In this document: positions 47,938-54,022 of the stretch, in pieces | How the letters are laid out: every line of letters starts with the position of its first letter | Position numbering within the stretch: the first letter of the stretch is position 1 | Assembly (NCBI RefSeq): GCF_028710345.1 | Contig: NZ_JAQTUH010000001.1 | Span: 186,001-250,000 of the forward strand | Length of the DNA: 64,000 nucleotides | Direction: 5' to 3' | Source: Sulfuricurvum sp. | GTDB taxonomy: Bacteria; Campylobacterota; Campylobacteria; Campylobacterales; Sulfurimonadaceae | Program-made: the position numbers and the translations under genes | Notes under the pieces: model-generated | Seen by the model: the letters and a program-made list of their open reading frames with translations, nothing else | Told to the model about the DNA's origin: nothing | The model's database searches: none

Positions 47938-47950
47938 GATGGAGCTAACA

Positions 47951-48325
47951 ATGCAAAAAACATTGGTCATTTCGCTAAGTAGTATTTTCTTTACATTACC
48001 TCTATTGGCAGATGTCACATCCACAGAAAAAGAAGGCTTTTTACTAACTAAGGAGTGTTTGCAGAAAGGGGAATTTACTGAATGTCCACTAGAACAGCTA
48101 AAGAAAATATCAGGGACGAATCCAATTATGTTGTTTCAGGGAACGGAAGCTAAAACATACATATTGGATATTAGTGGAATCGATAAATCAAAGCTGGATA
48201 AAGTTGCTTTTAAAAATAATATCATCGTTACAGGGACATTGCAAAGTGATAATGTAACTTTAAAAGTTAGTAATATTGTCCAAAAACCAATTTATAAAGA
48301 AATTCGAAGAAGTGGAGTAATATGA
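47951..48325 (+). CDS. Exported C-x8-C protein A, upstream of the radical SAM gene
   Basis: A 124-residue exported protein. I start at ATG 47951 (MQKTLVISLSS) because GGAG lies 6 bases upstream and the paralogue at 49394 has the same N-terminus and the same ATGGAGCT leader; the ATG at 47939 is part of that leader. Signal peptide about 1-20. The only two cysteines are Cys36 and Cys45 (KECLQKGEFTECPLEQL), followed by NPIMLFQGTEAKTYILDI and a beta-rich end, KEIRRSGVI. The stop overlaps the radical SAM start (ATGA). It is a candidate substrate of that enzyme; the family is unknown to me. Confidence 0.78.
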   Translation: MQKTLVISLSSIFFTLPLLADVTSTEKEGFLLTKECLQKGEFTECPLEQLKKISGTNPIMLFQGTEAKTYILDISGIDKSKLDKVAFKNNIIVTGTLQSDNVTLKVSNIVQKPIYKEIRRSGVI

Positions 48326-49392
48326 ACCTCACTCTCTCCCTCACTCACGCTTGTCAACTCCGATGCAATTACTGTTATGCAGGGGAGAAAATCGATAAAC
48401 GGATGAATGAAGAGACCGCGATGCGTGCTATCGATTTTGCGTTTGAGTACCCATCGCAGGAGATGATACTCGGATTTTTCGGGGGTGAACCGTTGTTGGA
48501 GTGGGATTTACTTCAAAAATCGGTAGAGAGAGTCGAAGAAAAAGCCAAAAATACCAATACCTATCTTACCAAAACCCTCACAACGAATGGATTATTGTTG
48601 GATGAGGCAAAAGCTTTATGGTTATCTCAACATGGTTTTCATATCGCCCTTTCTCTCGATGGGAACGAAAAAATGCACAGCACCCACAGAGTGTTTGCTA
48701 ACCAAGCCTCTTCATTTGAGCACACATTCTCAGCTCTCAATATCATCAAAAAATATTTTGATTCTAACCATTTCACGATTATCACAGTGGTTACCCCTCA
48801 AAATGTACATCATCTTTATGAATCGGTGGTAGAATTAGTAGAGCAACACGGGGTGAACCATTTTACCCTTAGTCCGAATCTTTATACTACTTGGGATGAG
48901 GGAGAAACTCTTTGGCAAGAGCAGTATGCGCGTATCGGAGAATATGTGATTTCCTCTTATGAAAAAGGGACTCCTATCTCGGTGAGTTTTATCGACCGAA
49001 AAATCGAAGCGACCCTTAATGAGCATTGTCGTGTTTGCAGTTTTGGAGAGATGGAGATTGCCGTTGCCCCATCGGGCAATATCTACCCATGCGAACGGTT
49101 GATTGGGGATGATTCGGGTGCCGTATTACTGGGTAATGTCCATGGTGGATTTGACATCCCAAAACGTCAAGAAATCTTGCGTGCACGCGGATGTGCTTAT
49201 AGTGAATGTGAAACGTGCGAAATACAAACACGGTGTCAAAACAGTTGCGGTTGTACCAACTATAGCCTCAGCGGAGAGATTAATCTTCCGACACCGATTT
49301 TGTGTTTTAATGAAAAGCTTTCAATATCGATTGCGGATTATGTATATTCTCAGCTGAGTGAAAACAGCTATTTTATAGAGAGATGGAGCTGA
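48322..49392 (+). CDS. Radical SAM/SPASM-domain peptide- or protein-modifying enzyme
   Basis: A 356-residue radical SAM enzyme. The SAM [4Fe-4S] cluster is held by Cys11, Cys15 and Cys18 (CQLRCNYC), with GGEP at 54-57. The C-terminal SPASM domain is complete: Cys239-x12-Gly-x4-Cys257, then Cys296-x2-Cys299-x5-Cys305-x3-Cys309, then Cys328, for two auxiliary clusters. Additional cysteines are 236, 291 and 311. This architecture is that of sulfatase-maturating and RiPP-maturing enzymes (thioether or C-C cross-linking). No sulfatase is near. It is sandwiched with almost no spacing between two exported C-x8-C proteins, which are the obvious candidates for modification in the cytoplasm before export. 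Confidence 0.92.
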   Translation: MNLTLSLTHACQLRCNYCYAGEKIDKRMNEETAMRAIDFAFEYPSQEMILGFFGGEPLLEWDLLQKSVERVEEKAKNTNTYLTKTLTTNGLLLDEAKALWLSQHGFHIALSLDGNEKMHSTHRVFANQASSFEHTFSALNIIKKYFDSNHFTIITVVTPQNVHHLYESVVELVEQHGVNHFTLSPNLYTTWDEGETLWQEQYARIGEYVISSYEKGTPISVSFIDRKIEATLNEHCRVCSFGEMEIAVAPSGNIYPCERLIGDDSGAVLLGNVHGGFDIPKRQEILRARGCAYSECETCEIQTRCQNSCGCTNYSLSGEINLPTPILCFNEKLSISIADYVYSQLSENSYFIERWS

Positions 49393-49393
49393 T

Positions 49394-49789
49394 ATGCAAA
49401 AGACACTGATGATTTCACTGAGTAGTATTTTATTTGTTGCCCCTATGATGGCTGGGGATGTGTATGCAGGGCTATTGACGACACAGCAATGTTTAGCATT
49501 AAAAGAACGGATGGACTGTCCAATGAAGCAATTGGATAAAATTACTCCTCAAAATCCTCTCATGATTTATCAAGAAAATGAAAGTAAACTCTATGTATTA
49601 GATGTCTCAGCAATCGATAAAAAAGATTTAAAGGCAATCGGATTTAGAAACGGTGTTTATATTTTTGGACATTTAAGTGCAGATGGAACAACGTTTGTAG
49701 TTAGAAAAGTATCACCACCGCGACCATTGGAAGATGTAAAAAATCAAGCCTTTATTGAAGGATGGACAAGACCAAGTGGTGCAGGTTGA
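49394..49789 (+). CDS. Exported C-x8-C protein B, downstream of the radical SAM gene
   Basis: A 131-residue paralogue of the protein at 47951: signal peptide MQKTLMISLSSILFVAPMMA, the only cysteines at 33 and 42 (QQCLALKERMDCPMKQLDKI), NPLMIYQENESKLYVLDV, and IFGHLSADGTTFVVRKV. It has an extra C-terminal tail ending EGWTRPSGAG. It starts one base after the radical SAM stop, and its ribosome-binding site GATGGAG lies in the last codons of that gene. Substrate, partner or scaffold of the enzyme; no known domain recognised. Confidence 0.78.
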   Translation: MQKTLMISLSSILFVAPMMAGDVYAGLLTTQQCLALKERMDCPMKQLDKITPQNPLMIYQENESKLYVLDVSAIDKKDLKAIGFRNGVYIFGHLSADGTTFVVRKVSPPRPLEDVKNQAFIEGWTRPSGAG

Positions 49790-50203: not shown

Positions 50204-51388
50204 TTATCTCCACTCCACACAAATCTTCGTCCCTTGATTTTGTTCCGATTCGATGGTGATGTTCATCCCGTACTCTTTGGCAATCATCGCGACGATGTGT
50301 AATCCTATCCCAAATCCCCCAACACTTTTATCGGCGCGGGTGTAACGTTCAAACACCCGATCAATCATATCTTTGGGGATACCGATGCCGTTGTCTTGGA
50401 TGCAGAGGGTGGATGGGGTGAGGGAGATGAGTATCTCGCCGCCCATTTTGTTGTATTTAATCGCATTGGAGAGGAGATTATCGATAACACGGGTCATTTT
50501 GGTTCGATCACTGGAGAGGGTGACGTTACCTGTGATAGAGAGTTTTAGGGTAATCTTTTTTTGCTCGATACGGTGGCGAAAATACTCGATACGTTCCCCT
50601 AAGAGGTGGGAAATATCGAGCGGTTCATTGTGGATGATGAGATCGTGGTTGAGGATGAGATAGGTGAGATCATCGTAGAGGGTGGAGATGGTGCGCGAAG
50701 CGATTTCGATACGTCCTAATTTTTTTTGAACCGATTCGGAGAGTTGAGTTCTATCTAATGATTCCAAATTGGTGAGGATGGCACTCACGGGGGTGTTAAG
50801 CTCGTGGGTGGTGTCTTTGATAAAATCATCGAGGAGGGCTATCGCTTCGTTCATGGGGCGGAGAATCAAACGGGAGAGCAAGAAACCTACTCCGACGAGC
50901 ATCAAAAACAAAATAATTCCGAAAGTAAGGGTTATTTCGAGTGTTTGTTGTCGCCATAAGCCGTCGTCTTCGGTTTCAAAAATCAGATAATATTCCCCCA
51001 TTCCATAGGGTAAGAGGGGGACAATCAGATAGATATGTCCCGATGCGACGTAAATATTTTCTTTGAAATTAATATCGGAGCCATTTAAACGGGAGATTAT
51101 TGGTTTTCGGTCATATCCGTAGAGGGCAGTGGTATAGGCTAAATCTTTTGGGAAAGTAGAAAGATTGCGATCGTTCTCGAGCCACTGTTTGAGTTTAGGG
51201 ACATAACTTTCCGATTCCAACTGCATCGCGAGGCGTTGAGAGGAGAGCATAACCGCTTTAGCGTACTGATAATAGAGGAGACCGAGAAGGGCGAGAATCA
51301 AAACCGACATGATTCCATAGAGGATTAGGAAGCTTTTGAGGGTACGGTATTTAGCGAAATTGATACCCGAGGCGCTTGTGGCTGACAA
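50204..51388 (-). CDS. Sensor histidine kinase of the NhaC operon
   Basis: A kinase of about 394 residues from a TTG at 51388 (reads SATSASGINFAKY), which has GGAAAGGA 6 bases upstream and overlaps the regulator gene by 38 bp; the longer frame to 51463 would overlap by 113 bp and has no signal. Two membrane segments (about 24-44 and 158-180) enclose a periplasmic domain. HisKA motif KDTTHELNTPVSAIL, HATPase motifs NLLSNAIKY, DNGIGIP and FGIGLHIV. Partner of the adjacent OmpR-type regulator. Confidence 0.85.
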   Translation of the reverse strand: MSATSASGINFAKYRTLKSFLILYGIMSVLILALLGLLYYQYAKAVMLSSQRLAMQLESESYVPKLKQWLENDRNLSTFPKDLAYTTALYGYDRKPIISRLNGSDINFKENIYVASGHIYLIVPLLPYGMGEYYLIFETEDDGLWRQQTLEITLTFGIILFLMLVGVGFLLSRLILRPMNEAIALLDDFIKDTTHELNTPVSAILTNLESLDRTQLSESVQKKLGRIEIASRTISTLYDDLTYLILNHDLIIHNEPLDISHLLGERIEYFRHRIEQKKITLKLSITGNVTLSSDRTKMTRVIDNLLSNAIKYNKMGGEILISLTPSTLCIQDNGIGIPKDMIDRVFERYTRADKSVGGFGIGLHIVAMIAKEYGMNITIESEQNQGTKICVEWR

Positions 51389-52019
51389 TGGAATCCTTTC
51401 CGAGGAGTTTGCGGAGCGTTTTGATGTAGGTGCGCAGACTTCCATCACTTGGGGTCTCATCATAATCCCACAGATGCTCCATAATCATCTCATGAGATAG
51501 TAGTTCATTGCGATGTTGGATAAAGAGTTTGAGGAGCTTGTGCTCTTTGAGTTGTAGATTCTGGAGATTTCCATTGATGGTTAGCACCTGATTATCACTA
51601 TCGTAGGTAATCCCATCGGCTAATGTGATGGCATCGGTAGGGTTGTGATAAAAATTGCGTTTGAGAATGGTTTGAATCCGTAGCAACAGCTCTTTGAGTG
51701 CGAATGGTTTGCGGATATAATCATCCCCTCCGCTCTCAAAACCCTCTTCGACATCACTCATCGCATTGCGTGAGGTGATAAAAATCGCAGGGGTGGTGTT
51801 TCCCCCTTTTCGATTTGCTTTTAGCAGGGAGAAACCATCACCCGCAGGGACATTCACATCGAGGAGCAATAAATCAAATTTGTGTTCGTATAAAGCATCT
51901 TCAGCAGAAGGTGCATCATAGACGCACACGACATTAAAGCCTTGTTCTTCGAGATATTCGCTGACACTTTCCGAGAGGTTCGGGTCATCTTCGAGGAGGA
52001 GGAGAGAGGCTTTGGTCAT
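51351..52019 (-). CDS. OmpR-type response regulator
   Basis: A 222-residue regulator from ATG 52019 (MTKASLLLLEDDPN). Receiver with Asp54 (LLLLDVNVPAGDG), acidic Asp11-12 and KPF lysine; winged-helix output with LKEHKLLKLFIQHRNELLS and a typical end VSHKRLGYQFR. The ATG overlaps the NhaC stop (ATGA), and the gene overlaps the kinase. The two-component pair probably responds to ionic or pH conditions handled by the antiporter; that is inference from the operon. Confidence 0.92.
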   Translation of the reverse strand: MTKASLLLLEDDPNLSESVSEYLEEQGFNVVCVYDAPSAEDALYEHKFDLLLLDVNVPAGDGFSLLKANRKGGNTTPAIFITSRNAMSDVEEGFESGGDDYIRKPFALKELLLRIQTILKRNFYHNPTDAITLADGITYDSDNQVLTINGNLQNLQLKEHKLLKLFIQHRNELLSHEMIMEHLWDYDETPSDGSLRTYIKTLRKLLGKDSIVSHKRLGYQFR

Positions 52020-53389
52020 GTTAGTGCGATTCCAAATAGAATAAATAATATGAGTGAGAGTCCGGCTGCAATCAGAGCATAGGGGAGTTGCGTTCGCGTA
52101 TGCTCTTGGACGCTGCATCCGCTCGCCATGGCAGAGATAATGGTGGTATCAGAGATTGGGGAGCAGTGGTCGCCAAATACACCGCCCGATATCGCCGCTC
52201 CCATTGCTAGTGCTATCGGTGCATCGAGACCGACAGCGAGAGGAATCGCGATGGGGAGCATGATACTAAACGTCCCCCAACTGGTTCCCGTTGCAAAAGC
52301 GATAATCGCCGCGAGCACAAAAATAGCTCCTGCGAGATATTCTGAGGGGAGATAGTCACCGATAAATGAGGCGAGGTATTGACCTACGTGCATATCCGAA
52401 CTCACTCCGCCGATAGCAAAGGCAAATAGGAGAATCATTGCGATAGGGGTCATGGTGCGAGCACCGCTCAACGATGCTTCCCAAAACTCTGATAATGTGA
52501 GGGCATTTTTAAAACGATAGTATCCTAGCATCATAAGTAATGTAATCAGTAAGGTATAAAAGATAGACGTTGAACCCGAACCTTTGAAAATATCTCCGTT
52601 TCCTGTGATAAACATAAAAAGAATGACCCCACCAATCATCCATACCATCGGCCATAGAAAAAGCCCTATGTCTCCTCTATCATCTTCACACTCAATTTCG
52701 GGGGTACTAATGGTGGCATGGCGCATGGGACCTATATCAATCTCATACCATATAGCGATAAAAGTGACGATAAGAGCCATAAAGGCATAAAAATTAAAGG
52801 CAATGGATTGCATCAGCCATGTGGCACTCTCTCCCGCGATAAGACCAGCGGAGATCTGTCCTCCGATAAGCCCGAGTAACAATGCTCCCCAACCATTTAA
52901 GGGGATAAGGGAACATACGGGAGCGGAGGTTGAATCACAAACAAAAGCGAGCTTGGCACGGCTAATTCCGTGACGATCACAAAAAGGGCGTCCGATGGCA
53001 CCTGCAACGAGCGAAGTGATGGATGACTCGATAAATACGATAATCCCGGCGATAAAGCTGGGCATCAGCGCTCCCCTTTTGGTTTTGACAATGGAGCGTT
53101 TGATACTCAATTCGTGAACTAAGCCATTCACCCCACCGCTACGCTCTATCAGCATCATGACAGAACCTACCATGATTGCAAACGCGAGGGTTTTGAGAAC
53201 CCATGCTTCACTAAGAAGGGCAAAAAAACGCTCAAAAGTTAGTAGAAAGGTACTGAGAAGATTAAAATCGGCGATTATGAATTCCCCAATGAGAACGGCT
53301 ATCGCTAATGCAATAAAGACAGAACGGCTAAAAAAAGCGAGAAAAATAGCGATAAGTGGAGGGATTAACCCTAAGATTCCGTATTCTAT
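52016..53389 (-). CDS. nhaC: NhaC-family Na+/H+ antiporter, apparent ATA start codon
   Basis: Polytopic ion antiporter, about ten to twelve hydrophobic segments. The only in-frame ATG near the front (53173) would give 385 residues and cut off two membrane segments. The frame is open for 72 more codons, with clear family-like sequence (EYGILGLIPPLIAIFLAFFS, later WVLKTLAFAIMVGSV). It contains no ATG, GTG or TTG until the preceding gene's stop. TAAGGA lies exactly 6 bases before an ATA codon at 53389, giving 457 residues, the normal family size. I therefore annotate ATA as start. Later motifs: PSFIAGIIVFIESSITSLVA, GTSWGTFSIMLPIAIPLA and GGVFGDHCSPISDTTI. Confidence 0.85.
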   Translation of the reverse strand: MEYGILGLIPPLIAIFLAFFSRSVFIALAIAVLIGEFIIADFNLLSTFLLTFERFFALLSEAWVLKTLAFAIMVGSVMMLIERSGGVNGLVHELSIKRSIVKTKRGALMPSFIAGIIVFIESSITSLVAGAIGRPFCDRHGISRAKLAFVCDSTSAPVCSLIPLNGWGALLLGLIGGQISAGLIAGESATWLMQSIAFNFYAFMALIVTFIAIWYEIDIGPMRHATISTPEIECEDDRGDIGLFLWPMVWMIGGVILFMFITGNGDIFKGSGSTSIFYTLLITLLMMLGYYRFKNALTLSEFWEASLSGARTMTPIAMILLFAFAIGGVSSDMHVGQYLASFIGDYLPSEYLAGAIFVLAAIIAFATGTSWGTFSIMLPIAIPLAVGLDAPIALAMGAAISGGVFGDHCSPISDTTIISAMASGCSVQEHTRTQLPYALIAAGLSLILFILFGIALT

Positions 53390-53398
53390 GGGGTATCC

Positions 53399-54022
53399 TT
53401 ATAGTGTCATTTGAAGGCGCATGATACCAGGGCGGTCAAATTGCTCTTCGTAATACTCACTCCGTTTTTCATCGATAACGCTAAAACCGAGTTTTTTATA
53501 AATCATCTCAGTTTCAATGGAACCGATTTCAACCATTGCTTGTACTTTTCGGTACCCTTTGAGTCTTGCGGTGAGCATACTCTTTCCTACAATCTCTTTG
53601 TATAGCTCAAAACTTTTAAATTCAGGTTTAACCATCATAAAATCACATACCCATGTTTTGTTATCGATTTCAGGTTCACACAACAAATATCCCGCGATAC
53701 GTTCATGGTAGCTCTCATCGATTCCTACCTCTTCGAGTGCACGGGCAAAGATATCGTGAGTAGCAATACGGGGTTCATATCCGCAGATTATTCCGGCAAT
53801 TACTCCATCAGAGAGAGCAATGGTGAAATTAGAAAAATGGCAATAGCTTTTGGTAGCGGTAAGACAAAACTTTTGTAACTGTTCTAATAGTTTGGGGGTG
53901 TCGGAGGTATTAAAGATATAGTCAAATATTCCTACCTTTTTTCCGGCACGAGAGCTTTCCAAAAGAGCTTCCGCGATAAACGGTGCGTCTGCCTCTGTTG
54001 CTTTACGAATGGTAATACTCAT
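53399..54022 (-). CDS. GNAT-family acetyltransferase
   Basis: A 207-residue GNAT protein. It starts MSITIRKATEADAPFIAEAL, ends KKLGFSVIDEKRSEYYEE, and has the acetyl-CoA region around FKSFELYKEIVGKSMLTARL, though the usual RxxGxG/A loop is weak. The substrate is unknown. First gene of a four-gene operon with the antiporter and two-component genes; 9 bases separate its stop from the antiporter's ATA start. Confidence 0.82.
   Translation of the reverse strand: MSITIRKATEADAPFIAEALLESSRAGKKVGIFDYIFNTSDTPKLLEQLQKFCLTATKSYCHFSNFTIALSDGVIAGIICGYEPRIATHDIFARALEEVGIDESYHERIAGYLLCEPEIDNKTWVCDFMMVKPEFKSFELYKEIVGKSMLTARLKGYRKVQAMVEIGSIETEMIYKKLGFSVIDEKRSEYYEEQFDRPGIMRLQMTL

Follow-up and report, generated by a model that had tools for sequence, protein, structure and literature searches.

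To our knowledge, very few natural genes start at AUA or AUC, and those that are known come mostly from model organisms. The infC gene, which encodes IF3 itself and is autoregulatory, starts with AUU in E. coli and with AUA in S. aureus. IF3 discriminates between start codons: only the G-ending starts AUG, GUG and UUG escape, and AUU, AUC and AUA do not (PMC4611024). In vitro, an AUU codon read by the CAU anticodon yielded 31% full-length product in the presence of IF3, AUA and AUC with CAU lying outside that experiment (PMC10158994). In S. aureus, the AUA start of ccpN was mapped by ribosome profiling; non-canonical starts gave approximately 10% of the AUG output in poor medium, and the ccpN AUA at most 30% in rich medium (PMC13009471). 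Repression by IF3 was demonstrated experimentally for the GTC start of sigR (PMC5472188). For E. coli pcnB, PMC13009471 cites Binns and Masters 2002 on low output from an AUU start. Here, we describe a transporter gene of Sulfuricurvum that opens with AUA. No earlier report of the start of this gene was found in the open-access literature.

Layout of the transporter locus

The window analysed is a stretch of 64,000 nucleotides from Sulfuricurvum sp. On its minus strand, an antiporter-like frame of 457 codons was read from 53389 to a TGA at 52018-52016, within the following arrangement:

53399..54022, minus strand: upstream GNAT-like acetyltransferase (weak PF00583 match, E=0.019, below the cut-off)
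53396..53400, minus strand: Shine-Dalgarno sequence AAGGA, overlapping the upstream stop, with a 6-nt spacer to ATA; kept in orthologues
53387..53389, minus strand: start codon ATA (ATA or ATC in every Sulfuricurvum copy with a visible start and in most Sulfurimonadaceae)
52016..53389, minus strand: coding sequence of an NhaC/Tet(35)-like transporter (PF03553), 457 aa with AUA start, based on the Pfam match and on dN/dS of codons 2-72
51351..52019, minus strand: downstream OmpR-type response regulator (PF00072 and PF00486)
50204..51463, minus strand: sensor histidine kinase, behind the response regulator gene (PF02518, PF00512), start approximate

The transporter frame opens directly past the TAA of the upstream gene (53401-53399), and its first in-frame ATG, GTG or TTG is the ATG at 53173, codon 73. 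When the sequence was read again, both observations behind the original prediction were confirmed, namely that 72 codons beginning with ATA contain no ATG, GTG or TTG, and that TAAGGA overlaps the upstream stop 6 bases ahead of the ATA at 53389. At the other end of the gene, the ATG of the response regulator (52019-52017) overlaps the antiporter TGA as ATGA. The frame of the response regulator had been listed from an ATG at 52118, 99 bases upstream; 52019 is the likelier start. Elsewhere in the window, on the plus strand, a radical SAM gene (48322-49392) lies between two small proteins (47939-48325 and 49394-49789) that resemble each other and begin much like signal peptides.

The product scored 152.7 bits against Pfam PF03553 (Na+/H+ antiporter family; cut-off 23 bits). 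The name NhaC, given in the original prediction, thus fits at the level of this family, but the NCBIfam nhaC equivalog TIGR00931 reached 53.7 of 370 bits and missed its cut-off, so that the name is approximate. A search for relatives of the transporter with solved structures returned none. The gene is present in a single copy in its own genome; when 100 related genomes were sampled, 59 had a match. An in-frame stop interrupts two orthologues (L048, TGA; L317, TAA), which are either pseudogenes or assembly errors.

Conservation of the start codon and translation from codon 1

For each orthologue, the codon aligned with residue 1 in the retrieved locus was taken as the start codon. This comparison, which the original prediction had proposed as a check, gave ATC in 23 and ATA in 11 Sulfuricurvum copies, that is, in 34/34 with a visible start. 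ATA or ATC was also found at Sulfuricurvum loci with different upstream sequence (L004, L009, L010, L016 and L030). In a wider family set of 90 sequences, 75 had ATA or ATC, 14 had ATG, TTG or GTG, one (L049) was unclear and fell in neither count, and no ATT was found. The canonical starts of the 14 relatives lie at the same position or at most a few codons away; one Sulfurimonas locus (L104) has ATG precisely at this position. The N-terminal pattern was additionally searched in Sulfurimonas, covering 135 genomes, with a gene match in 115. Approximately 68 genomes had ATA, 1 had ATG and 0 had ATT; the ATA/ATC pattern itself matched 70 genomes, two of them seemingly off-target, and among the matches listed all were ATA. 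The codon thus behaves as an evolutionarily conserved AUH start, with a codon other than AUG, GUG or UUG at the same position in orthologues, no usable canonical start in its vicinity and a sequence constrained as coding from the start codon on.

Codons 2-72 had a median dN/dS of 0.096, compared with 0.048 and 0.079 elsewhere in the gene, values that are rough since dS is near saturation. This is strong purifying selection, similar to that on the remainder of the gene, and codons 2-72 are therefore translated. Alignment columns are conserved from the start codon onward and not just upstream of it. The orthologues strongly support the proposal that translation truly begins at AUA.

ATA/ATC is shared by all of Sulfuricurvum and by most of Sulfurimonadaceae, so that both an error in sequencing and a recent mutation are excluded; neither of the corresponding suggestions in the original prediction, a misread base or a normal start disabled by a single base change, is supported. 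It is extremely improbable that the gene is dying or that its true start is the ATG at 53173. In favour of such a start, ATG is common at codon 73 within Sulfuricurvum; against it stand the presence of ATA or ATC in dozens of independent genomes, the purifying selection on the 71 codons after the first, the strong hydrophobic segments within the N-terminal 72 residues, and the codon-73 Met itself, which is not conserved in the family and whose place is taken by Leu in relatives (FAILVGS or FALLVGS, for example). Hardly more probable is a GNAT-transporter fusion produced by read-through of the GNAT stop or by frameshifting. Such a product could be imagined from the window, where both genes share one frame with a single TAA between them, but gap length and relative frame vary between species, and the codons from the stop to AUA are not conserved. 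At three loci (L009, L010 and L016), no GNAT gene could be recognised immediately upstream. In L015 and L024, a second in-frame stop, TAG, directly precedes the ATC, which excludes a read-through fusion at those loci. The fusion is thus largely refuted.

Selection on start-codon identity

On the Sulfuricurvum tree, six switches of the start codon between ATA and ATC were counted, and none to ATG or ATT. At 87 fourfold-degenerate third positions of the gene, the other kinds of change occurred in similar numbers; scaled to six A/C changes, 11.2 changes involving G and 10.4 involving T were expected (Poisson p ~1e-5 and ~3e-5 for their absence); the change counts are approximate, being parsimony counts on one quick tree, and the contrast is large. 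ATT was present in 19/20 of the invariant Ile columns of the gene, and the start alone was without it. These patterns show that AUG and AUU are rejected by selection and that the codon is held in the AUA/AUC class in Sulfuricurvum and most Sulfurimonadaceae. The avoidance of AUU is unusual, and we met no earlier description of AUU exclusion combined with free exchange of AUA and AUC. It makes a specific prediction on the initiation ranking of the three AUH codons in Campylobacterota.

A weak start that initiates but has no regulatory role, persisting by tolerance and drift, is unlikely. Change is possible, as canonical and AUA/AUC starts were exchanged at least six times on the tree, but drift would not be expected to leave ATG and ATT at zero in Sulfuricurvum, nor ATA so far ahead of a single ATG in Sulfurimonas. 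Very unlikely, too, is a constraint on the surrounding DNA or RNA, such as a binding site or an sRNA target, with codon identity as a by-product. Admittedly, nowhere else in the Sulfuricurvum gene is synonymous constraint as strong as at codons 2-11 (53357-53386, minus strand; rank 1 of 450 windows), where GAA and TTA-GGG are nearly fixed (loci L002-L033). Yet no conserved stem-loop was found around the start, no Rfam element matched there, and the constrained TTAGGG is missing from Sulfurimonas, where AUA is kept regardless. A-to-I RNA editing of AUA was rejected as a general cause, since AUC cannot yield AUG in this way.

The initiation signals are otherwise ordinary. Shine-Dalgarno pairing at the transporter was -4.6 kcal/mol, compared with a genome-sample median of -4.8, and the extended Shine-Dalgarno of the S. 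aureus type is absent. In 2 Mb of a relative (G029), the initiator tRNA is encoded by two canonical CAU genes that are identical to each other; neither there nor in 440 kb of G000 was an unusual initiator with a different anticodon found. General use of AUH starts in the genus was likewise rejected, on a sample of 119 orthologous pairs drawn from 440 kb of the window's genome and 2 Mb of the relative. The transporter gene alone had, in both genomes, homologous coding sequence that begins far ahead of the first canonical start; the candidates ranked after it resemble alignments reaching a few codons into leaders. Nor does infC provide a parallel AUH case: in Sulfuricurvum and several other Campylobacterota, it has an apparent conserved TTG start (GAGGT-N6-TTG; L141-L170), and autoregulation of the E. 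coli AUU type therefore appears to be absent.

Among GNAT-adjacent genes, those with canonical starts mostly have no Shine-Dalgarno and those with AUA/AUC starts do have one: pairing had a median of -4.6 kcal/mol with AUA/AUC starts versus +0.8 kcal/mol with canonical starts (n=6; p 2.5e-4, uncorrected). Such a contrast is what one would see if selection kept the rate of initiation constant, although independent events are too few: with 3-6 independent pairs on the tree, compensation between Shine-Dalgarno and start codon is not significant given ancestry. Several Sulfurimonas AUA genes are without a clear Shine-Dalgarno, and their initiation would have to depend on coupling.

Proposed mechanism and comparison with known systems

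We consider it probable that this is a real AUA start, read with a mismatch at position 3, that caps output at a low level and is maintained by selection, with IF3 probably restraining initiation and with probable coupling to the upstream GNAT gene. The ordinary AAGGA would direct the ribosome to the AUA at 53389, where the ordinary CAU initiator tRNA would read the codon through the third-position mismatch, presumably as fMet. Ribosomes that have just terminated on the GNAT gene probably help by termination-reinitiation. A GNAT-like neighbour, recognised by a sequence-motif test, is kept in 72 of the 75 AUA/AUC-start orthologues, and the distance from its stop to the start codon is usually 1-21 nt (9 nt in the window). 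IF3 should discriminate against AUA and AUC and cap transporter output at a low level, and through the weak start this output may follow the activity of IF3 or the growth state. The benefit under selection would then be that little of an ion transporter is made. We infer a weak, capping start because output is lowered or regulated in the known cases (pcnB, infC, ccpN and sigR). Low expression or control by initiation factors, both raised in the original prediction, would be the best mechanism. Overall, the weak start looks like a long-maintained limit or regulator of a membrane protein, not an error.

More tentatively, and with the balance of our judgement somewhat against it, the identity of the start codon could be the conserved regulatory element of the operon, with AUA and AUC interchangeable and AUU and AUG counter-selected. 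If this is true, the output of the ion transporter would be set at a graded level throughout the family, possibly in dependence on IF3 or growth state. Roughly 100 species provide a natural series of AUA and AUC starts together with natural ATG and TTG variants; with a series this broad, comparative and reporter tests can ask which start-codon strength is selected. Gene finders limited to ATG, GTG and TTG are expected to mis-start or truncate the transporter in these genomes.

The four known genes each share part of this picture. Like pcnB of E. coli, where an AUH start keeps output low according to the citing source mentioned above, the transporter would be limited by its start codon; the pcnB codon, however, is AUU, the sole AUH codon absent from the transporter starts. 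The start of infC also belongs to the AUH class against which IF3 discriminates, but infC is IF3's own autoregulatory gene, and its Sulfuricurvum counterpart apparently starts with TTG. The sigR gene of Streptomyces has a conserved non-canonical start within an operon and a next gene overlapping by ATGA, as here. It differs in having GTC instead of an AUH codon and a strong AGGAGGTG, and repression by IF3 is experimental in sigR, whereas for the transporter we infer it. The ccpN gene of Staphylococcus and Bacillus resembles the transporter gene in being an otherwise ordinary coding gene with an AUA conserved across genera and low initiation expected; ccpN encodes a repressor and has an extended Shine-Dalgarno, whereas the present gene encodes an ion transporter behind an ordinary AAGGA within an operon. 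The transporter start is a new, unusually widespread and deeply conserved addition to the small class formed by infC, pcnB, ccpN and sigR.
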